This document shows, one piece after another, positions 42,428 to 51,965 of a stretch of DNA of 64,000 nt (its first letter is position 1; each line of letters opens with the position of its first letter). The position numbers and the translations under genes are program-made. Under the pieces are notes generated by a model, which had not been told where the DNA came from, made no database searches, and saw only the letters and a program-made list of their open reading frames with translations. This stretch comes from an uncultured Bacteroidales bacterium (GTDB lineage: Bacteria > Bacteroidota > Bacteroidia > Bacteroidales > Paludibacteraceae). Location of the stretch: contig CALUNA010000003.1 in NCBI GenBank assembly GCA_944321895.1, positions 62,001 through 126,000 on the forward strand. Reading direction: 5' to 3'.

Positions 42428-43702
42428 ATGAAAGATATTTTTGAAACAATCAAGTCAATTCCCGGTCCGTTAGGACAATATCAGGGTAATGCCGATGGTT
42501 ATTTTATGTTTCCGAAGCTTGAAGGTGAGATCGGTCCGGAAATGGTTTTCAACGGCAAGAAGGTTTTAAACTGGAGTTTGAACAATTATTTGGGACTGGC
42601 CAATCATCCGGAAGTGAGAAAGGCCGATGCGGAAGGCGCAGCCAAGTTTGGCCTGGCCGCTCCGATGGGAGCCCGCATGATGTCGGGTGACACGGTATAT
42701 CACAAAAAGCTGGAGCAGGATTTGGCAGATTTTGTCGGCAAGCCGGCCGCTTATCTGTTGAACTTCGGTTATCAGGGCATGGTATCCATTATTGATGTAA
42801 TGTGCAGCCGTTTTGATGTCATTGTATATGATTCTGAGGCGCATGCATGTATCATGGATGGCATATTCCTGCACAAGGCCAAGGGAGGCAAGAGTTTCGT
42901 TTATCCCCACAATGATATCGACCGTTGCGAGAAAATGCTGAAGATGGCCGAGAACTACATTGACAAGGAAGGCGGGAAAGGCGGTATTCTGGTTGTAACG
43001 GAAGGCGTGTTTGGCATGGCCGGCGACCTTGGCGCTCTGGACAAAATCGTTGCCTTGAAGAAGGACCACTGTTTCCGTATTCTGGTGGATGATGCACATG
43101 GTTTCGGAACCATGGGCAAAACCGGTGCCGGGACTCCGGAGCATTTCGGCTGCCAGGCTGGAATTGACCTGCATTTCTGCACGTTTGCCAAGAGTATGGC
43201 CGGCATAGGTGCTTTCATAGCTTCCGAGCGTGAGATAGTGGATCATTTGCGTTTCAACATGCGTTCCCAGATTTTTGCCAAATCCTTGCCGATGCCTATG
43301 GTTATCGGTGCCATGAAGCGTTTGGAACTGCTGAAGACGGAAAACTCCTTGCGTGACAAGCTCTGGACTATTACACGCACCCTTCAGGAAGGTTTGCGGA
43401 GCAAGGGCTTCGATTTGGGTCACACGCAGTCGCCGGTTACGCCGGTTTATTTCAAGGGCGGTGTGGGCGAAGGCACCAATATTGTGGTTGACTTGCGTGA
43501 GAACTACGGCATATTCTGTTCCATCGTTGTTTATCCGGTTGTGCCGAAAGGTGTTTTGATGCTTCGCATTATACCGACGGCAGCCCATACGCTGGAACAT
43601 GTGGAACGTACCATCAGCGTATTCAGCGAAGTCAAGGAAAAACTTGCCGCTGGATACTATGACCACGAGATGCCCAATATGAACCTGATAAACAAAGGTT
43701 AA
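42428..43702 (+). CDS. Alpha-oxoamine synthase, probable cysteate C-fatty acyltransferase (sulfonolipid synthesis)
   Basis: A 424-residue PLP enzyme of the serine palmitoyltransferase/KBL/BioF family. Readable motifs: LNNYLGLANHPEV, the PLP-stacking His in DSEAHACIMDG, VDDAHGFGTMG and the Schiff-base Lys255 in TFAKSMAG. Family members join an amino acid and an acyl thioester with loss of CO2. The adjacent cysteate synthase gene and the downstream short-chain reductase point to cysteate as substrate, giving 3-ketocapnine, the first committed step of sulfonolipids. Serine palmitoyltransferase is the main alternative; BioF is unlikely because no biotin gene is near. Confidence 0.72.
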   Translation: MKDIFETIKSIPGPLGQYQGNADGYFMFPKLEGEIGPEMVFNGKKVLNWSLNNYLGLANHPEVRKADAEGAAKFGLAAPMGARMMSGDTVYHKKLEQDLADFVGKPAAYLLNFGYQGMVSIIDVMCSRFDVIVYDSEAHACIMDGIFLHKAKGGKSFVYPHNDIDRCEKMLKMAENYIDKEGGKGGILVVTEGVFGMAGDLGALDKIVALKKDHCFRILVDDAHGFGTMGKTGAGTPEHFGCQAGIDLHFCTFAKSMAGIGAFIASEREIVDHLRFNMRSQIFAKSLPMPMVIGAMKRLELLKTENSLRDKLWTITRTLQEGLRSKGFDLGHTQSPVTPVYFKGGVGEGTNIVVDLRENYGIFCSIVVYPVVPKGVLMLRIIPTAAHTLEHVERTISVFSEVKEKLAAGYYDHEMPNMNLINKG

Positions 43703-43849: not shown

Positions 43850-45082
43850 ATGAAGTATCAACTCAAATGTAAGAAATGCGGCTATGTTACGCCGGATTTT
43901 GCCACCTGGTTCAGACAAAATCAGGCGTGCCCCCAATGTGGCAGTAAACATTCGGAAGCAGAATACACTACCGACTATGCCAAGCTGAGGGATGTTTTTA
44001 AAACTAAGCCGGAAAATTTCTGGGCTTATTTTGATTTTCTGCCGCTCATGGACAGGAAAAACATAATTACCTGCAATGAAGGAACACCGGACCTTGAGCG
44101 CTGGGGTTTTCTGGAGAAACATGCATCGGAACGTTATGGTGTTGATTGCAAAGTCTTTGTTTGTCGTAATGACCTGAACGGTGGAACGCAGACATTTAAA
44201 GATGTGGCCGGTGCGCTTGGAGCTTCCATTTTCCTGGAAAACGGTGTCCGTGAGTATTGTGTGGCTTCGACGGGCAATACGGCGACGGCTTTTGCCAAAT
44301 ATCTGGCGCTTGCCGGTATTAAATTCACCAATTTTGCTCCTTCTGACATCAATCCGGATTCGGTTGAGGAAATCCGCGCTCTGGGTCAGGAGGTAGTTTT
44401 GTCGAAAGGCAATTATGCGCAGGCCAAAAAGGAGGCTGCAGATTTTGCGGCGCAAAACCATGTGCTTATTTCTACCGGCAATATTGATCCGATCCGTGTG
44501 GAGGCCAAGAAGACGATGGCCTTTGATTTCATGCGTCAGTTGGGGCAGTTGCCTGATGTGTACATGCAGGCGGTTGGCGGTGGAACCGGTCCCATAGCGT
44601 TGGATAAGGGCGTACGTGAGCTTCAGAGCCATTTTAGCGGTTTGAAGACTCCCCGGATGCTCCTTGTGCAGCAGGATTTGTGTGATCCGATGGTGCAGGG
44701 TTGGGAGTCTGCACGTGCCAACGGTTTTCCGGAGGGCTTTGAAAACGACTATCCGACGATAGCAAATCCTCTGACAAAAGTATCTATCTTGTCGGCTGGT
44801 GTTCCGGCCATGTTTCCCGTGGTGGCTCCGATAGTACGGAAGACGAATGGTGATTTTCTGCGGGTAAAGGAAGCCGAATTGCCTTCTTATGCCCGTAAGG
44901 TGTATGATGAGATGAAAGTTTATCTTGGCCCGGCATCCATTGTATGCATAGCCGGTTTTTATCAGGCGCTTGCAGAGGGCAAGATTCATGGTGGCGAAAC
45001 GGTATTGCTCAACATAGGTGAGGGTGCGGGCCGTGCATCCGCTTTTGTAGAGGAGACCAAGAAGGCGTGTCCCATTGATTGA
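43850..45082 (+). CDS. Cysteate synthase (threonine-synthase-like, PLP)
   Basis: A 410-residue fold-type II PLP enzyme. An N-terminal zinc ribbon (CKKCGY near residue 8, CPQCGS near 28) precedes the catalytic domain with the PLP Lys in GGTQTFKDVAGA and the phosphate loop ASTGNTATAF. A glycine-rich VGGGTGPIALDKG stretch follows. It resembles cysteate synthase of Methanosarcina, which makes L-cysteate from phosphoserine and sulfite, more than true threonine synthase. Cysteate is the head-group precursor of capnine, and the neighbours support that use. It is probably the first gene of an operon running to 53667. Confidence 0.78.
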   Translation: MKYQLKCKKCGYVTPDFATWFRQNQACPQCGSKHSEAEYTTDYAKLRDVFKTKPENFWAYFDFLPLMDRKNIITCNEGTPDLERWGFLEKHASERYGVDCKVFVCRNDLNGGTQTFKDVAGALGASIFLENGVREYCVASTGNTATAFAKYLALAGIKFTNFAPSDINPDSVEEIRALGQEVVLSKGNYAQAKKEAADFAAQNHVLISTGNIDPIRVEAKKTMAFDFMRQLGQLPDVYMQAVGGGTGPIALDKGVRELQSHFSGLKTPRMLLVQQDLCDPMVQGWESARANGFPEGFENDYPTIANPLTKVSILSAGVPAMFPVVAPIVRKTNGDFLRVKEAELPSYARKVYDEMKVYLGPASIVCIAGFYQALAEGKIHGGETVLLNIGEGAGRASAFVEETKKACPID

Positions 45083-45122: not shown

Positions 45123-45764
45123 ATGGGAAATTTGTATAACTTGTTAATGCAGGATGTCCGTTTTGAAGAAGCGTTGAAAGCCTGCATGAATTGCGGTGTA
45201 TGTACGGCGATATGTCCGGCAGCGGAATTTTATCCGTATGATCCCCGCAAGATATGCGATATTGTTCAGAGGCAGAATGAGGAGGAGATAGAAAGTCTGC
45301 TCCGTTCCGACACGATATGGTATTGCGGGCAGTGCATGTCTTGTAAGACGCGTTGTCCCCGTGGCAACATACCCGGTTCGCTGATAAACATATTGCGCAA
45401 AGTGTCGCAGGAGCTGGGTTATTTTGCGGACAGCCGGATGGGGCGTCAGCAGTGCAGTATTGTAGATGGTGTTGGTCGGAATATACTGGAAATCGGCTAT
45501 TGCGTACATCCCGACCGTATTGATCCGGATAAGCATGTTGAACAAGGTCCAATCTGGCGTTGGTATCGTGAGAATATTGAAGAGATAGCCCCCAAGCTGG
45601 GGGCCAATTATCATGGTGATGGCCCGGGTGCATTGCGTACGGTGCGTAAAGAAAATCTGGAGGAGATACGTAAGATATTTGAAGCTACCGGTGGAATGGA
45701 GTTGTTGGAGCAAATCAAGCGTGAGGAGCCGGCAAGTGAAAAATCCGACAAACACAAGATCTGA
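45123..45764 (+). CDS. HdrC-like protein with two [4Fe-4S] clusters
   Basis: A 213-residue soluble electron carrier with two ferredoxin-type motifs CxxCxxCxxxCP: Cys21/24/27/31 and Cys68/71/74/78. The C-terminal half (residues 100-213) is helical and charged and lacks further Cys motifs. In heterodisulfide reductases HdrC passes electrons between HdrA and HdrB. The frame is open from a TTG at 45075 that overlaps the cysteate synthase gene; the ATG at 45123 is preferred as it begins just before the first cluster, as in other HdrC proteins. Four bases separate it from the HdrB-like gene. Confidence 0.85.
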   Translation: MGNLYNLLMQDVRFEEALKACMNCGVCTAICPAAEFYPYDPRKICDIVQRQNEEEIESLLRSDTIWYCGQCMSCKTRCPRGNIPGSLINILRKVSQELGYFADSRMGRQQCSIVDGVGRNILEIGYCVHPDRIDPDKHVEQGPIWRWYRENIEEIAPKLGANYHGDGPGALRTVRKENLEEIRKIFEATGGMELLEQIKREEPASEKSDKHKI

Positions 45765-45768
45765 TTGA

Positions 45769-46824
45769 ATGATGAAACGTTATTGGAACGAATATCAGAA
45801 AGAAATAGCCGATGACAAGTTTTTTTATGAACGCAGTTGCATCAGGCAGACCTTTTTTCCGGGTTCGGAGGCGGCATTTCTGAAAATGCTCCGCGAAGAA
45901 TTGGGTAAGGATATTTATGATGAGGCCAACCAGCATACGTGTACAGGCATAGGCTATCATTCGGATATTGTGCCCTTGCAGACGACCATGACAGTGGTTG
46001 CGCGGCTTTTTGCGCTGATGACCGAGGCCGGTTATGAGAATTATGTACCTTCTTGCGTGACCTCATTCGGTGTTTTCACGGAGATGGTGGAAATGTGGAA
46101 GCATAATCCGGAATTACTGGAAAAGACGCGTAAGATTTTGTATGATACGACGGGGCGCACATTTGAGATTCCGAAAAATATCGCGCATCCATCGGATATT
46201 ATCTACAAGTTCCGTTATGACTTGAAGCAGAAAATGAAGTACCAGCTGGTGAACCGTTTTACGGGTAAGCCGTTGCGTGTGGTTGAGCATATCGGTTGCC
46301 ATTATGCGAAGATATTTCCGAAAGCCGGTGTGGGCAACGCGGAGTTTCCGTATGTGTTGGCCGGCATGATTGAGGCATGGGGCGGTGAAGTGATAGACTA
46401 TCCGGAGCGCCGTCATTGTTGCGGTTTTGGTTTCCGGCAATATCTGGTTCAGGAGAACCGCGGTTACTCGATAGCGAACTCCAAGAAGAAATTTGAATCC
46501 ATGGAACCCTATGAGCCCGATTTCATCGTGGCAAACTGTCCGGGTTGTACCATGTTTCTTGATAAATGGCAGTATACGATAGCCGAGATGGAGAACAAGA
46601 CTTATGACAAAAACGGCTATGGCATACCGGTTCTTTCGTATGAGGAAATGGCCGGTCTGTTGCTTGGTTATGATCCGTGGAAATTGGGCTTGCAGCTGCA
46701 TCAGGTCCAGGCGGAGCCGTTGCTGAACAAGATAGGCATAGCCTACGATCCGAATGAGAAGTTTACGGGTGTTTCCGGGAAAATTCTTCCGAGGCCGGAG
46801 AAGCCTCATAATTTATTGGTGTGA
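45769..46824 (+). CDS. HdrB-like protein with one intact CCG domain
   Basis: A 351-residue protein related to the heterodisulfide reductase catalytic subunit. Its C-terminal CCG domain is complete (Cys177, Cys217-Cys218-Gly, Cys257, Cys260), enough to ligate a noncubane or [4Fe-4S] cluster. The N-terminal CCG domain is degraded: Cys24 remains, CCG reads CTG (58-60) and the last CxxC reads CVTS (96-99). Related HdrB-like proteins act on disulfides or lipoyl-bound sulfur. The substrate here is unknown. Confidence 0.82.
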   Translation: MMKRYWNEYQKEIADDKFFYERSCIRQTFFPGSEAAFLKMLREELGKDIYDEANQHTCTGIGYHSDIVPLQTTMTVVARLFALMTEAGYENYVPSCVTSFGVFTEMVEMWKHNPELLEKTRKILYDTTGRTFEIPKNIAHPSDIIYKFRYDLKQKMKYQLVNRFTGKPLRVVEHIGCHYAKIFPKAGVGNAEFPYVLAGMIEAWGGEVIDYPERRHCCGFGFRQYLVQENRGYSIANSKKKFESMEPYEPDFIVANCPGCTMFLDKWQYTIAEMENKTYDKNGYGIPVLSYEEMAGLLLGYDPWKLGLQLHQVQAEPLLNKIGIAYDPNEKFTGVSGKILPRPEKPHNLLV

Positions 46825-46840
46825 TTAAAGAGAAAAGAGA

Positions 46841-47884
46841 ATGAGCGACAGAACAACGACAGCGCAGGTGGCGGTAATCGGTGGCGGTCCCGCCGGCATA
46901 GAGGCGGCTTGTGCATTGAGCAATAACGGTATCCGGGTATCTCTTTTTGAGAGCGAACCGGTTCTTGCCCATAATGTAGGTAACAAGTTCAAATTGTTTC
47001 CCGATTTTTCATCGGCATCGGAGCTGGTTGCGACATTATCGCATAAACTGTCAGGCAGTCATGTATCCGTTCATTTGGATACGGAGATTGTTTCCATGGA
47101 ACAGAAGGGCGGTTTATGGTTTCTTACGGACAATTACGGGCACACTCATGAGGCTGTTGCCGTTTTGCTGGCAACCGGTTATGATGTGTTTGATGCCAGG
47201 CGCAAGGAAGAGCTGGGTTATGGCATTTACAAAGGCGTTGTGACATCCATAGATCTGGAGAGTATGCTGAAGGCCGGCAAGCTTGTGAATGTATTGGGCG
47301 AACAGCCTCAGTGCGTTACCTTTTTGCAGTGCGTAGGTTCACGCGATGAAAAGATAGGGAATCATTATTGTTCCAAGGTTTGCTGTGTGACGGCAGTCAA
47401 GCAGGCGATAGAGGTGAAAAAGCTGTCTCCGAGAACCGATGTATTTTTATTTTACATGGATTTGCGCATGTGGGGTCAAGGTTTTGAGGAGTTGTATCGC
47501 GAAGCGCAGGAGCAGTACGGGATTCGTTTTGTCCGCGGTCGCATTTCGGAGGCCGCGTCGACGTTTGATGACCGTGTGCAGATCAAGGCAGAAGACACGC
47601 TGGTGGGTCAGCCGTTGAAGATGAGTACGGATTTGCTGGTTCTGATGGTAGGCATGGAAGCCTCGTGCGGTACCAAAAAACTGGCTTCATGTTGCGGTGT
47701 AGAGGGAGCCTATGGATTTGCTCACAGTTGTTCTCCCTATTTGTCCGATAACATGACGGATCGTCAAGGTTTGTTTTTGGCTGGTTCCTGCAAACGTCCG
47801 ATGAGCGTGTCGGATACCGTGAACGATGCACGCTCGGCTGCGGTTGGAATAGCCGACTATCTGAAAACAGCTTTGTCTAACTAA
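46841..47884 (+). CDS. HdrA/QmoA-like flavoprotein
   Basis: A 347-residue FAD protein with a Rossmann dinucleotide loop GGGPAGIEAA (from residue 14) and a second FAD segment near the C-terminus (GLFLAGSCKRP). The unusual iron-sulfur motif of HdrA is present (Cys164, Cys177, Cys181, Cys182 within QCVGSRD...HYCSKVCC). It lacks the extra ferredoxin domains of methanogen HdrA, so it resembles the compact QmoA and sHdrA forms. It probably accepts or bifurcates electrons between the HdrB/C proteins and another carrier. Confidence 0.85.
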   Translation: MSDRTTTAQVAVIGGGPAGIEAACALSNNGIRVSLFESEPVLAHNVGNKFKLFPDFSSASELVATLSHKLSGSHVSVHLDTEIVSMEQKGGLWFLTDNYGHTHEAVAVLLATGYDVFDARRKEELGYGIYKGVVTSIDLESMLKAGKLVNVLGEQPQCVTFLQCVGSRDEKIGNHYCSKVCCVTAVKQAIEVKKLSPRTDVFLFYMDLRMWGQGFEELYREAQEQYGIRFVRGRISEAASTFDDRVQIKAEDTLVGQPLKMSTDLLVLMVGMEASCGTKKLASCCGVEGAYGFAHSCSPYLSDNMTDRQGLFLAGSCKRPMSVSDTVNDARSAAVGIADYLKTALSN

Positions 47885-47894
47885 GACTTGAATT

Positions 47895-48266
47895 ATGGAT
47901 TTTGGATTTACCATATCAAAACCGCGTTCCATTGAGCCGACGGAAGCCGGCAGGGAACAGCTGTTACAGTTGGAAGAGCAGGTTCCTACATTCAGGCGGT
48001 GCATGAATTGCGGAGGTTGCACGGCGACATGTTCTGCCGGACAGTTCACCGATTTCAACATCCGGAAGGTACACAACCTGTACCGCTGGGGACAATACAA
48101 GGAGCTGGATGAAGAATTACAGAAGTGCATGTTGTGCGGCAAGTGCACGCTGGTTTGTCCGCGTGGGGTCAATCTGCGTTCGCTGATAATTCATTTGCGC
48201 AAGGCCCTAAACAAGGATCACCAGCCCGGCGATTACCAACATTTTATACGAAACAACAACCGGTAG
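47895..48266 (+). CDS. Second HdrC-like [4Fe-4S] protein
   Basis: A 123-residue small protein with two clusters: Cys36/39/42/46 and Cys78/81/84/88 (CMNCGGCTATCS and CMLCGKCTLVCP). It is compact and ends soon after the second cluster, unlike the first HdrC-like protein. It would shuttle electrons to the membrane-bound subunit encoded next. It follows the HdrA-like gene by 10 bases. Confidence 0.85.
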   Translation: MDFGFTISKPRSIEPTEAGREQLLQLEEQVPTFRRCMNCGGCTATCSAGQFTDFNIRKVHNLYRWGQYKELDEELQKCMLCGKCTLVCPRGVNLRSLIIHLRKALNKDHQPGDYQHFIRNNNR

Positions 48267-48299
48267 GAACGGTTTAAACCATAACCAGTAAGCTATTTT

Positions 48300-50081
48300 A
48301 TGTCATCATACTTTCATCCTTTCATTCTTCCTTTCTGTATAGGCACATTGGTTTTGTTTGCGGTGATAGCTGTAAAGTTCTATCGTTGGATAAGCGGGCT
48401 TGACCGCAAGCAAAAGAAGAATGTGTGGATGTCCCTGCTGACAGTCCGCATTTTTCCTTCCTTGTGGCGTATTTTCAAGGAAATAGTCAAGGAAGTGTTG
48501 TTGCATGTGAACATAACCAGATACAACTGGCGTATGGGCTACATGCACAGGAGCATTGCCCTGGGTTGGTTTTTGCTGATTGTTACCGGATTTGTGGAAA
48601 CGTTGTTTCATTTCAGGGGTAGCGGTCATCCTCCGTGGTTGGGCATCTTTTTCCGTTTTTTTGTGCGTGACTACACCTATGGCATATCTCGTGTGTGGGC
48701 CGATGTCATGGATTTGCTGTTGCTTTACGTGCTTTCCGGTGTTTCCATCGCCATATTCAAGTCTATTTATTCGCGGATTGTGGGCATGCGCAAGAACACC
48801 CGGTTGCGTTGGTTCGATATCTGTCTGCGGTATTCCCTGTGGCTGATATTTCCCATGCGTTTGTTGTCGGAAAGCGCTACGGCCGCTTTGACTGGAAATG
48901 GCGGTTTTCTGACCCAGGGAATCGGTGACATGATGCCCACCGAGTTTGCCCAAGTCATGGAAGTTCCTTTCTGGACGGCCTATTCCACCTGTCTGTGTGT
49001 ATTTTTTGTGCTGTTTCCGTTCTCCCGCTACATGCATATATTCACCGAACCGCTTTTGATTGTATTCAGGAGTCTTGGAGTCCGTGAGGGCAGCCAACCC
49101 ACGGGTTATACGCGCATGGAATTGAATGCCTGTTCGCGTTGCGGCATTTGCATAGATGGTTGTCCGCTTGACAAGGATTTGAATATAAATGACATACAGG
49201 GCGTTTATTTGTTGCGTGATGTACGTCACGGCCTTCCGCACCGCAATGCAACGGAAAACTGCCTGATGTGCGACCAGTGCGTTGTGGATTGTCCGGTAGG
49301 TATAGAAATCAACGAGATACGCAAGCAGGAGCGCAACAAAGGCACGTTGGATACGCACGACAACTACCGTTTTCTGGATTCGGTAAAATCGTTCAATGCC
49401 ATTGGACGTATTGCCTACTTTGGCGGTTGCATGTCGCATTTGACTCCGGGTGTAACCGAATCGATGAAAAAGATTTTCGATGCGGTCGGGCAGAAGTACT
49501 GGCTGATGGACGAGGACAAGACCATTTGCTGCGGTCGGCCGTTGCTGCAACAAGGTTTCATAGCCCAAGCCGCGGAGTTGCGCCGGAAGAACGCCCGTCT
49601 GATTGTGGAAAGCCATGCGCAATACTTGGTCACATCCTGTCCGATTTGCTATCAGTCGTTCAAGAAAGAATATAATTTGCCGATAAAGGTCATTCATCAC
49701 ACCGAATATCTGGCGGTCCTGATACGTCTGGGCAAGTTGAAACCGCATAAAACCGGTTTGAAAGTGGCCTATCATGATCCGTGCGAGTTGGGGCGCGGCT
49801 GCAATATTTACGATGAGCCGCGTGAGGTGTTGCAGGCCGTGGCCGATCTGGTCCGTGTTCAGAAAGAACGGGAGCACAGCATTTGTTGCGGCCATAGTCT
49901 TGGTAACACGGCCCTGGATGTGGAAAAGCAGGACAAGGTGCGTGATGCGGCTTTGCGGAATCTGACGGCAGACCATCCGGACTTGATAGCGACGGCCTGC
50001 CCGATGTGCAAGAAAGCCTTCCAGCATGGCCAGCCGACCCATGTGAAGGATGTAGCGGAACTTATAGCAGAACAATTATGA
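48300..50081 (+). CDS. Membrane-anchored HdrD/DsrK-like oxidoreductase (quinone-linked)
   Basis: A 593-residue fusion. The N-terminal third has about five or six membrane helices resembling NarI/HdrE/DsrM cytochrome-like anchors, with several conserved-looking His residues. Then come two ferredoxin motifs (from Cys278 and Cys321) and two complete CCG domains (around Cys377/Cys410-411 and Cys529-530). This corresponds to HdrE+HdrD or DsrM+DsrK in one chain. It should exchange electrons with menaquinone. Its stop codon overlaps the reductase gene by 4 bases (ATGA), so the redox and lipid genes are translationally coupled. Confidence 0.83.
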   Translation: MSSYFHPFILPFCIGTLVLFAVIAVKFYRWISGLDRKQKKNVWMSLLTVRIFPSLWRIFKEIVKEVLLHVNITRYNWRMGYMHRSIALGWFLLIVTGFVETLFHFRGSGHPPWLGIFFRFFVRDYTYGISRVWADVMDLLLLYVLSGVSIAIFKSIYSRIVGMRKNTRLRWFDICLRYSLWLIFPMRLLSESATAALTGNGGFLTQGIGDMMPTEFAQVMEVPFWTAYSTCLCVFFVLFPFSRYMHIFTEPLLIVFRSLGVREGSQPTGYTRMELNACSRCGICIDGCPLDKDLNINDIQGVYLLRDVRHGLPHRNATENCLMCDQCVVDCPVGIEINEIRKQERNKGTLDTHDNYRFLDSVKSFNAIGRIAYFGGCMSHLTPGVTESMKKIFDAVGQKYWLMDEDKTICCGRPLLQQGFIAQAAELRRKNARLIVESHAQYLVTSCPICYQSFKKEYNLPIKVIHHTEYLAVLIRLGKLKPHKTGLKVAYHDPCELGRGCNIYDEPREVLQAVADLVRVQKEREHSICCGHSLGNTALDVEKQDKVRDAALRNLTADHPDLIATACPMCKKAFQHGQPTHVKDVAELIAEQL

Positions 50082-50863
50082 AAAAATTCGAATCCATATT
50101 GATTACGGGCGCCGGTTCCGGTATCGGTGAAGCCATTGCGTATTGTTTTGCGCGGCAGGGCTGCCGTCTGATGCTGGTGGGACGTAATACGGAACGTCTG
50201 GAAGCGGTTACGAAGCAGTGTGTCGCTTTGGGCGGGAAAGCCGAGTGGCGACAGGTAGACATGTCGAATGCCGATTCCATCGATGTTTTTGTGAATGAAC
50301 AACGGGAACAGGAACGTGTTTTTGACTGTCTGGTATTGAATGCCGGCATTTCGCAGCGCGCGCTGACACTGGACACCGATATCCTTGTGGACCGCAAAAT
50401 CATGGAAACGAATTATTTCGGTCCGGTCTGTCTGACCAAAAAGTTGGGTTATATGCTGAAAAGCAATCCTTATACGGCCATTGCGGTCACCAATTCCATA
50501 TCCGGACTGTTCGGATTTCCGCTACGCTCTGCATATTGTGCATCCAAACATGCGCTGTTCGGTTTTTTTGAGACGCTGGAGCTTGAGAATGACAATATCC
50601 GCGTAACATTCCTTATTCCGGGACGCATCAACACGCCTATCAGCAAAAGCGCGGTTCTGGGCAACGGCGAGACATACGGGCAGATGGACAGCGGCCAGGC
50701 TCATGGCCTTGATGTGGGAAAATGTGCGGAGATAGCTGTCCGTGCCATTGAAAAAGGCAAGCACCGTCAGCTCATTGGCGGCAAGGAACTGCTGATGGTA
50801 TATTTCAAGAAATGGGTGCCGCCATTGTTCCGCCATTTGGCACGCAAGGTGAGTGCGACCTGA
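50078..50863 (+). CDS. Short-chain dehydrogenase, probable 3-ketocapnine / 3-ketosphinganine reductase
   Basis: A 261-residue SDR with the NAD(P) loop TGAGSGIGE (residues 10-18), the NAG motif (88-90) and the catalytic Ser140 or Ser142, Tyr153 and Lys157 (SAYCASK). It ends in a hydrophobic/basic tail (KKWVPPLFRHLARKV), as is common for SDRs acting on lipid substrates. In the context of cysteate synthase and an oxoamine synthase it probably reduces the 3-keto group of capnine. The frame is open upstream to 50006; the ATG at 50078 gives the correct Rossmann start. Confidence 0.78.
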   Translation: MKKFESILITGAGSGIGEAIAYCFARQGCRLMLVGRNTERLEAVTKQCVALGGKAEWRQVDMSNADSIDVFVNEQREQERVFDCLVLNAGISQRALTLDTDILVDRKIMETNYFGPVCLTKKLGYMLKSNPYTAIAVTNSISGLFGFPLRSAYCASKHALFGFFETLELENDNIRVTFLIPGRINTPISKSAVLGNGETYGQMDSGQAHGLDVGKCAEIAVRAIEKGKHRQLIGGKELLMVYFKKWVPPLFRHLARKVSAT

Positions 50864-50900: not shown

Positions 50901-51965
50901 ATGAGAGAAAAAGTTATTTGCGGAATGCAACAGGTGGGTATTGGCGTCGAGAACGTACATGAAGCCTTCAAATGGTACATGGAAGCCTTCGGGTGCAATG
51001 CCAAAATCCTGGATGCGGAAGGTACAGCCGAACGCATGTTGCCCTACACGGGCGGTAAGCCTCAGGACAGGTGGGCCATTCTGGCCTATAACCTGCGCGG
51101 TGGCGGCGGTTTTGAAATATGGCAGCCTCAGGGTCGTGCCCTGCGTTACCTGCAGGAACCGGTGCGTTTGGGCGACCTGGGAATTTTGTGTGCTAAAATC
51201 AAGGCTACGGACATTCAGCGTGCCTACAATCATTTGAAACAGGTTATCGGAGCAAAAATCCTTTGCGAACCGCGGATTTCCCTGTCGGGCCGGAAACATT
51301 TCTTCCTGCTGGATGTGTATGGCAATTTGTTTCAAGTGGAAGAAGACAATTACGTTTTCATCGACCAGAACAAGGCAACCGGCGGTGCCAACGGTGCAAT
51401 TATCGGAGTTTCTGACATGGAAAAATCCATGGCTTTTTATGGCAAGTTGCTGGGATTTGACCGTGTGGAATACGATGAAACCGGTATTTTTGAGGATTTG
51501 CAGGGTGTTGAGGGCGGTGACAAACGCTTGCGGCGTGTCATGCTGAACCGCACCAAACCCATGCAGGGACCGCTCAGCGAAATCATGGGCACTGCCCACA
51601 TAGAGCTTGTACAGGCTCTGGAAGGTACGCCCAAAAAACTGTATGAAGGCCGCTGGTGGGGCGACCCCGGATTTATTCATTTGTGCTTTGATGTGCGCAA
51701 CATGGATGCCGTGAAAGCCGATGCCGAAGCACTCGGCCATCCGTTCGTATGCGACAGTGGTGCCGACTTCAAAATGGGCGAGGCCGACGGGCATTTCACC
51801 TATGTGGAAGACCCGGATGGAACCTTGATTGAATTTGTGGAGACATTCAAGATTCCAGTCCTGAGAAAGCTGGGCATTTATTTGCATTTGTCAGGAAGGG
51901 ATGACAAGAAGCCGTTGCCGCGCTACATAACCAAAGCATTGCGTTTTCTGGAAGTAAAAGGTTAA
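50901..51965 (+). CDS. Two-domain VOC-superfamily protein (dioxygenase/glyoxalase-like)
   Basis: A 354-residue protein with two vicinal-oxygen-chelate domains: about residues 10-155 (VGIGVENVHEAFKWYMEAFGC) and 165-320 (GVSDMEKSMAFYGKLLGFD). Candidate metal ligands lie in the second half: His-Glu in AHIELVQAL, His in FIHLCFDV and Glu in GTLIEFVET. The layout resembles 4-hydroxyphenylpyruvate dioxygenase-type enzymes, but the substrate is unknown. It lies between the sulfonolipid reductase and lptB in one operon, so a role in lipid modification is possible but unproven. Confidence 0.75.
   Translation: MREKVICGMQQVGIGVENVHEAFKWYMEAFGCNAKILDAEGTAERMLPYTGGKPQDRWAILAYNLRGGGGFEIWQPQGRALRYLQEPVRLGDLGILCAKIKATDIQRAYNHLKQVIGAKILCEPRISLSGRKHFFLLDVYGNLFQVEEDNYVFIDQNKATGGANGAIIGVSDMEKSMAFYGKLLGFDRVEYDETGIFEDLQGVEGGDKRLRRVMLNRTKPMQGPLSEIMGTAHIELVQALEGTPKKLYEGRWWGDPGFIHLCFDVRNMDAVKADAEALGHPFVCDSGADFKMGEADGHFTYVEDPDGTLIEFVETFKIPVLRKLGIYLHLSGRDDKKPLPRYITKALRFLEVKG

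Follow-up and report, generated by a model that had tools for sequence, protein, structure and literature searches.

The 64,000-nucleotide stretch analyzed here (the window, G000:C3:62001-126000), which belongs to a 2.63-Mb, 99.9% complete Bacteroidales genome, carries a five-gene cassette for a heterodisulfide reductase (Hdr)-like, membrane-linked complex that, almost certainly, is repeatedly associated with sulfonolipid biosynthesis in Bacteroidales. Many uncultured Bacteroidales from the gut and rumen carry the five genes of this iron-sulfur complex together with those for sulfonolipids, which are sulfur-containing membrane lipids. The complex probably acts anaerobically in connection with menaquinone and forms the sulfite for cysteate synthesis by oxidizing sulfide or sulfane sulfur, a role for which we infer both the substrate and the direction. 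The window has nine co-directional genes between positions 42428 and 51965, all on the + strand, in the order SulA, CYS (a cysteate-synthase-like enzyme), HdrC1, HdrB, HdrA, HdrC2, mHdrD (a membrane HdrD-like subunit), SDR (a short-chain dehydrogenase/reductase), and VOC. Five of these open reading frames (ORFs), from the HdrC1 start codon (ATG at 45126) to 50081, constitute the Hdr cassette HdrC1-HdrB-HdrA-HdrC2-mHdrD. The intergenic gaps from CYS through mHdrD are 4 to 43 bp, and mHdrD overlaps SDR by 4 bp, so it is plausible that CYS, the Hdr cassette, and SDR form one operon. A preliminary description of the window had read the gene order as C-B-A-C-B, the last gene encoding a membrane protein with two CCG domains (HdrB/D-like). 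This order is confirmed and recurs in other Bacteroidota, with the refinement that the fifth gene encodes an HdrD/EtfD-like membrane protein and not an HdrB. Because the same order recurs, the C-B-A-C-(membrane CCG protein) arrangement is not a product of chance.

The tie between Hdr and cysteate or sulfonolipid synthesis, which the preliminary description had proposed, is borne out by recurrent linkage, by co-occurrence with SulA, and by two kinds of cysteate synthase. A profile scan of genome contigs yielded 578 confirmed HdrB relatives, and the best 80 of these, all from Bacteroidota, were kept. In 24 of the 80 loci, HdrB has SulA or CYS within its stretch, in several gene orders: SulA-CYS-SDR-VOC-C1-C2-mD-B-A, C1-B-A-C2-mD-SulA-CYS-SDR-VOC, SulA-CYS-C1-B-A-C2-mD, and one divergent form. 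In the HdrB tree, the state of linkage to SulA/CYS changes at least five times. Among 50 genomes whose fetched HdrB locus showed no SulA, 47 have SulA elsewhere; some of these loci are truncated by contig ends. An even set of 150 genomes was used as the family sample; Hdr occurs in 10 and SulA of the Lys type (Lys281) in 16, and all 10 Hdr-positive genomes are among the 16 (Fisher test, 7e-12, kinship ignored). At the genus level, the association is 5/5 against 9/33 (P 5e-4). A further 14 SulA-like matches have Glu at the Lys281 position, and none of them occurs with Hdr (five of the lowest matches were left out). Clustering of the recurrent neighbors revealed no further shared partner of the cassette; by this clustering, TatC, a biotin-type carboxylase, and others near the cassette were set aside as genomic context only.

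The genome G544 has the order VOC-SulA-SDR-C1-B-A-C2-mD, followed by a pyridoxal phosphate (PLP) enzyme gene that overlaps mHdrD. This enzyme matches the cysteate synthase model TIGR03844 with 427 bits (cut-off, 325) and the solved cysteate synthase 9k3c with 507 bits, and it is not orthologous to the CYS of the window. The type of cysteate synthase thus changes while Hdr stays with the pathway, so the complex would serve cysteate/sulfonolipid synthesis and the CYS of the window would itself be a cysteate synthase. This swap is the strongest argument for both.

The sulfonolipid genes of the window begin with SulA/CFAT (42428 to 43702), a cysteate fatty acyl(-ACP) transferase, or 3-ketocapnine synthase (ACP, acyl carrier protein). 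In a phmmer search against the PDB, its closest solved structures were 7u7h (E 1e-183), which we take to be the SulA of A. finegoldii, and 28eh, "Cysteate-C-fatty acyltransferase" (1e-160), compared with 3e-61 for serine palmitoyltransferase. The Lys281 residue is present in the window's SulA, RSQIFAKSLPMP. Lys at this position is specific to SulA (PMC9304779). The SulA-like enzymes with Glu there (RSQTFSE; L197-L210, from Hdr-negative family members) have 46 to 50% identity and possibly represent a third class of condensing enzyme, with neither the Lys of SulA nor the reported Ala of Spt. CYS (43850 to 45082) is a PLP enzyme of the threonine-synthase superfamily with a PALP domain, and many genomes have its gene flanked by those for SulA and SDR. 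Its scores are 108.7 bits with TIGR03844 (below the cut-off of 325), 149 bits with PRK08197, and 61 bits with 9k3c, to which it is only distantly related. Its loop QAVGGGTG resembles QAVGSGTG of 9k3c, whereas threonine synthases have VGNAGN. The SDR oxidoreductase (50078 to 50863; adh_short, 5e-39) is a candidate 3-ketocapnine reductase and belongs to the SulA-CYS-SDR-VOC core, including loci without Hdr. The VOC/glyoxalase-fold protein (50901 to 51965; Glyoxalase, 1e-14) is conserved in this core, which it adjoins in Hdr-positive loci and in most Hdr-negative loci; no curated NCBIfam model matches it at its cut-off, and it is thus an uncharacterized sulfonolipid gene.

Four of the five Hdr subunits (all except HdrC2) were aligned with 20 to 35 relatives each, and the metal-ligand cysteines are invariant in all four. 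HdrC1 (45126 to 45764; NF041779 HdrC, 2e-25) has two [4Fe-4S] sites, with C20, C23, C26, and C30 and C67, C70, C73, and C77 invariant among 20 relatives. HdrB (45769 to 46824; NF041780 HdrB, 1e-43) is the catalytic candidate; its C-terminal CCG site is intact (C177, C217-C218, C257, and C260 invariant), and its N-terminal CCG site is degenerate, with three of the five cysteines left (C24, C58, and C96). HdrA (46841 to 47884; 347 amino acids) is a compact sHdrA-type FAD/[4Fe-4S] flavoprotein. Its residues 10 to 336 are collinear with 6TJR, the sHdrA of Hyphomicrobium, over 327 residues with 32% identity; C164, C177, C181, and C182 are invariant, and the FAD domain is present. HdrA diverges much faster than its neighbors, with 74% identity to the same-genus relative (L028 10440-11489; the relative is G413, CASDOZ010000001.1, an uncultured Bacteroidales bacterium), while HdrB and SulA have 99%. 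HdrC2 (47895 to 48266; Fer4; HdrC TIGR03290, 8e-12) has two [4Fe-4S] sites and is conserved in the cassettes. The membrane EtfD/DsrK/HdrD-like subunit mHdrD (48300 to 50081; 593 amino acids; two CCG domains and Fer4) has about five transmembrane helices, two [4Fe-4S] sites, and two intact CCG domains; H69, H83, and H246, near the helices, and all cluster cysteines are invariant. Confident AlphaFold2 models of HdrB and mHdrD were built from alignments of the window proteins with those of related loci. The HdrB model (pLDDT 85) has its best fold matches in the methanogen HdrB structures 7bkb and 5odc, and the best solved fold for the mHdrD model (pLDDT 88) is M. smegmatis EtfD, 9ojn (E 4.5e-21, TMq 0.65), an ETF:menaquinone oxidoreductase. 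This modeled resemblance agrees with the quinone link suggested in the preliminary description. In many rumen and gut Bacteroidales metagenome-assembled genomes (MAGs), the fetched stretch has the HdrB-HdrA pair but none of HdrC1, HdrC2, and mHdrD (L072, L073, L074, L078, L087, L089-L091, L094, L097, L099, and L112).

In the proposed mechanism, the five subunits would assemble into one complex that works in the oxidative direction. HdrB, with its one intact non-cubane CCG site, would act together with HdrC1 and HdrA to convert reduced sulfur to sulfite, the candidate substrates being sulfide, persulfide, or carrier-bound sulfane sulfur. Electrons would pass via HdrC2 to the EtfD-like mHdrD, which would reduce menaquinone as the acceptor. 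Cysteate synthase would consume the sulfite at once in the conversion of phosphoserine to cysteate, and SulA would condense cysteate with acyl-ACP. The HSO3-/HS- couple has an E0' of about -116 mV. Menaquinone lies at about -74 mV (PMC10734219), and the oxidation of sulfide by menaquinone would therefore be feasible when cysteate synthase drains sulfite. The relatives of the cassette in Picosynechococcus, which are located beside a protein resembling sulfide:quinone reductase (SQR), are counted in favor of the oxidation of sulfide or sulfane sulfur. The more specific proposal, that Bacteroidota possess a dedicated LbpA-independent sulfite factory with an EtfD-like menaquinone link, operating anaerobically and solely for sulfonate (cysteate) synthesis, is in our estimate evenly poised between right and wrong.

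Searches for PAPS_reduct (PF01507; CysD/CysH), NIR_SIR (PF01077; siroheme sulfite reductase), and the rhodanese family gave no match in the window's genome, while control genomes were positive. With these families absent, an ordinary assimilatory sulfite source and a rhodanese making sulfite from thiosulfate were both rejected for this genome, and the earlier remark that no other sulfite source is visible holds for the three families. A strong CysD/CysH pair is missing in all seven family genomes that have Hdr and a window-type CYS; there is one 68-bit match in G426, and others have weak partial matches. Among genomes with CYS only, CysH is present in two and absent from three. The sulfite source for coenzyme M synthesis in methanogens has been stated to be unclear (PMC6286981).

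Several observations weigh against a role in sulfite supply. The searches that found no ordinary sulfite source did not include TusA/DsrE carriers, Sat/AprBA, thiosulfate reductases, or sulfonate lyases. Strong matches to both CysD and CysH occur in four Hdr-positive genomes with unlinked cassettes (G131, G221, G424, and G450), where sulfite could therefore come from sulfate. Three genomes with SulA and CYS (G513, G521, and G524; L040, L041, and L039) have neither Hdr nor CysH; either another sulfite source exists in them or the MAGs are incomplete. A rule that Hdr replaces the PAPS (3'-phosphoadenosine 5'-phosphosulfate) reductase thus fails, since some Hdr-positive genomes have CysD/H and some SulA-positive genomes have neither. 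In addition, SulA and Hdr share lineages, so the association statistics overstate their independence. There is no gene for the lipoate-binding protein LbpA beside the cassette, and the Hdr-positive genomes G424 and G450 have no GCV_H protein at all; the known chemistry of the sHdr system of sulfur oxidizers is therefore not directly transferable. Sulfite supply by Hdr is thus a good fit to the window's genome without being a strict rule.

Other functions of the complex were also considered. It could perform a different redox step in sulfonolipid synthesis, an EtfD-like exchange of electrons with a lipid intermediate that is unrelated to sulfite. The EtfD that gives the best solved fold for mHdrD belongs to mycobacterial beta-oxidation and links acyl-coenzyme A dehydrogenases to the quinone pool, the association of Hdr with SulA, the enzyme of the lipid step, is as strong as that with cysteate synthase, and the four genomes with CysD and CysH have another possible sulfite route. 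We nevertheless consider this function rather unlikely: genes for ETF or an acyl dehydrogenase are not recurrent neighbors of the cassette, the substrates of HdrB-type CCG sites in characterized enzymes are thiols or disulfides, and beyond SDR no lipid step is known to require such a complex. It is unlikely to a similar degree that menaquinol reduces a disulfide, persulfide, or polysulfide in a Dsr/Hdr-like reaction that gives sulfide or reduced thiols. Most characterized HdrABC and DsrMK enzymes do work reductively, and the CCG part of mHdrD scores with TfrB and DsrK models, but menaquinol has little reducing power, neither DsrC nor a sulfite reductase family is recurrent near the cassette, and such a reaction would leave unexplained why the cassette is tied to SulA and cysteate synthase, for which oxidized sulfur is needed.

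A true lithotrophic-type sHdr-LbpA system, with LbpA encoded elsewhere (e.g., as GcvH), would account for the C-B-A-C-x order, the compact HdrA collinear with 6TJR, and the one GCV_H protein of the genome. However, that sole GCV_H match lies on another contig, adjoining purE, in agreement with the earlier observation that the window contains no lipoate-binding protein gene; a GCV_H search of 17 genomes found at most one copy in each, and its absence from G424 and G450 weakens this explanation. LbpA, sHdrH, EtfAB, LipS1/S2, sLpl, TusA, DsrE, and rhodanese are not among the recurrent neighbors of the cassette (TusA/DsrE were not searched genome-wide). With HdrB2 replaced by a membrane subunit and HdrA showing no clear grouping with sHdrA, membership in sHdr, to which the preliminary description had likened the gene order, is not supported, and a true sHdr-LbpA system is improbable. 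Least probable is that the cassette forms a respiratory module of its own, with lineages and neighborhood in common with the sulfonolipid genes by descent or chance. The cassette is apart from SulA in many genomes and split in some, and kinship inflates the association, but several independent gene orders, non-orthologous cysteate synthases beside the cassette, and the presence of SulA in nearly all genomes where it was not seen beside HdrB speak against it.

The sulfonolipids of gut Bacteroidota affect host immunity, and cysteate synthase requires sulfite; the Hdr-like complex, membrane-bound and genetically linked, offers a concrete candidate for its source. In a literature search, no paper was found that connects sulfonolipid synthesis with an Hdr complex or with any source of sulfite, or that says where anaerobes without sulfate assimilation obtain sulfite. 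Sulfite supply by the complex, if true, would constitute a previously unrecognized way of making sulfite and would explain in general how anaerobes obtain it when they build sulfonates from reduced sulfur. Hdr-type chemistry, so far a matter of energy metabolism, would then also serve lipid biosynthesis, and the sulfur of sulfonolipids would likely derive from reduced sulfur in the gut.

Known sHdr gene sets are of type I (shdrC1-B1-A-H-C2-B2) or type II (C1-B1-A-H-B3 with etfAB) (PMC11582611), and lbpA was associated with hdr-like genes in 56 of 56 genomes surveyed (PMC6067878). The window cassette is like sHdr in its HdrC-HdrB-HdrA-HdrC-CCG protein order, its compact single-FAD HdrA, and its proposed sulfite product. 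It has C1, B, A, and C2 but no H, no soluble B2/B3, and no etfAB; an integral membrane EtfD-like subunit takes the place of HdrB2, and the context is biosynthetic, in heterotrophic anaerobes. Although its proposed mode of action resembles that of sHdr, the cassette should not be classed as sHdr. It is not placed with QmoABC either, which would be recognized by a QmoC-type fused membrane/HdrC subunit, QmoB, and an AprBA/Sat context: the best window protein reached 49 bits with QmoC (cut-off, 300), and no Apr or Sat family was found among the recurrent neighbors of the cassette (no genome-wide search for them was made). In an HdrA tree built without QmoA, for which plasmid searches for references gave only Picosynechococcus sp. 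PCC 7003 and Ilyobacter, the Bacteroidota and PCC 7003 sequences group together (83/86), apart from methanogen-type HdrA (99/97), and 6TJR is on a very long branch. HdrB matches on an Acidithiobacillus plasmid were dropped, as they belong to a hemerythrin/GcvH locus and not to an sHdr cluster.

The closest non-Bacteroidota relatives found are on a plasmid of PCC 7003 (NZ_CP016476.1), with identities of 46% for HdrC1, 43% for HdrB, and 42% for HdrA. There (L005 11221-16961), the order HdrC-HdrB-HdrA-HdrC-HdrB is followed by a flavoprotein that scores best with the type III SQR family, though far below the cut-off; the annotation of the stretch examined includes no LbpA-like gene. This cluster differs from that of the window in that its second HdrB is soluble (SdhE/HdrB-like) and no sulfonolipid genes are nearby. 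The methanogen HdrABC complexes (5ODC, 7BKB, and 8RVU) share with the cassette the folds of HdrB and the HdrA core as well as their cluster motifs, but methanogen HdrA aligns strongly with the window's HdrA only over the second half of the latter (residues 105 to 338), which is without the extra domains of the methanogen subunit. The window's HdrB has also lost two of the five cysteines of the N-terminal CCG site, and its cassette has a membrane HdrD-like subunit and no coenzyme M or coenzyme B substrates. M. smegmatis EtfD (9OJN) and DsrK/HdrD-type proteins have membrane helices, Fer4, and two CCG domains in common with mHdrD, which, compared with 9OJN (18% identity), is shorter, lacks an ETF partner gene, and is partnered by HdrABC-like subunits. 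With the sulfonolipid pathway of Alistipes and Chryseobacterium (Cys, SulA/CFAT, and KCR), the window has in common a Lys281 SulA, a putative cysteate synthase, and an SDR.

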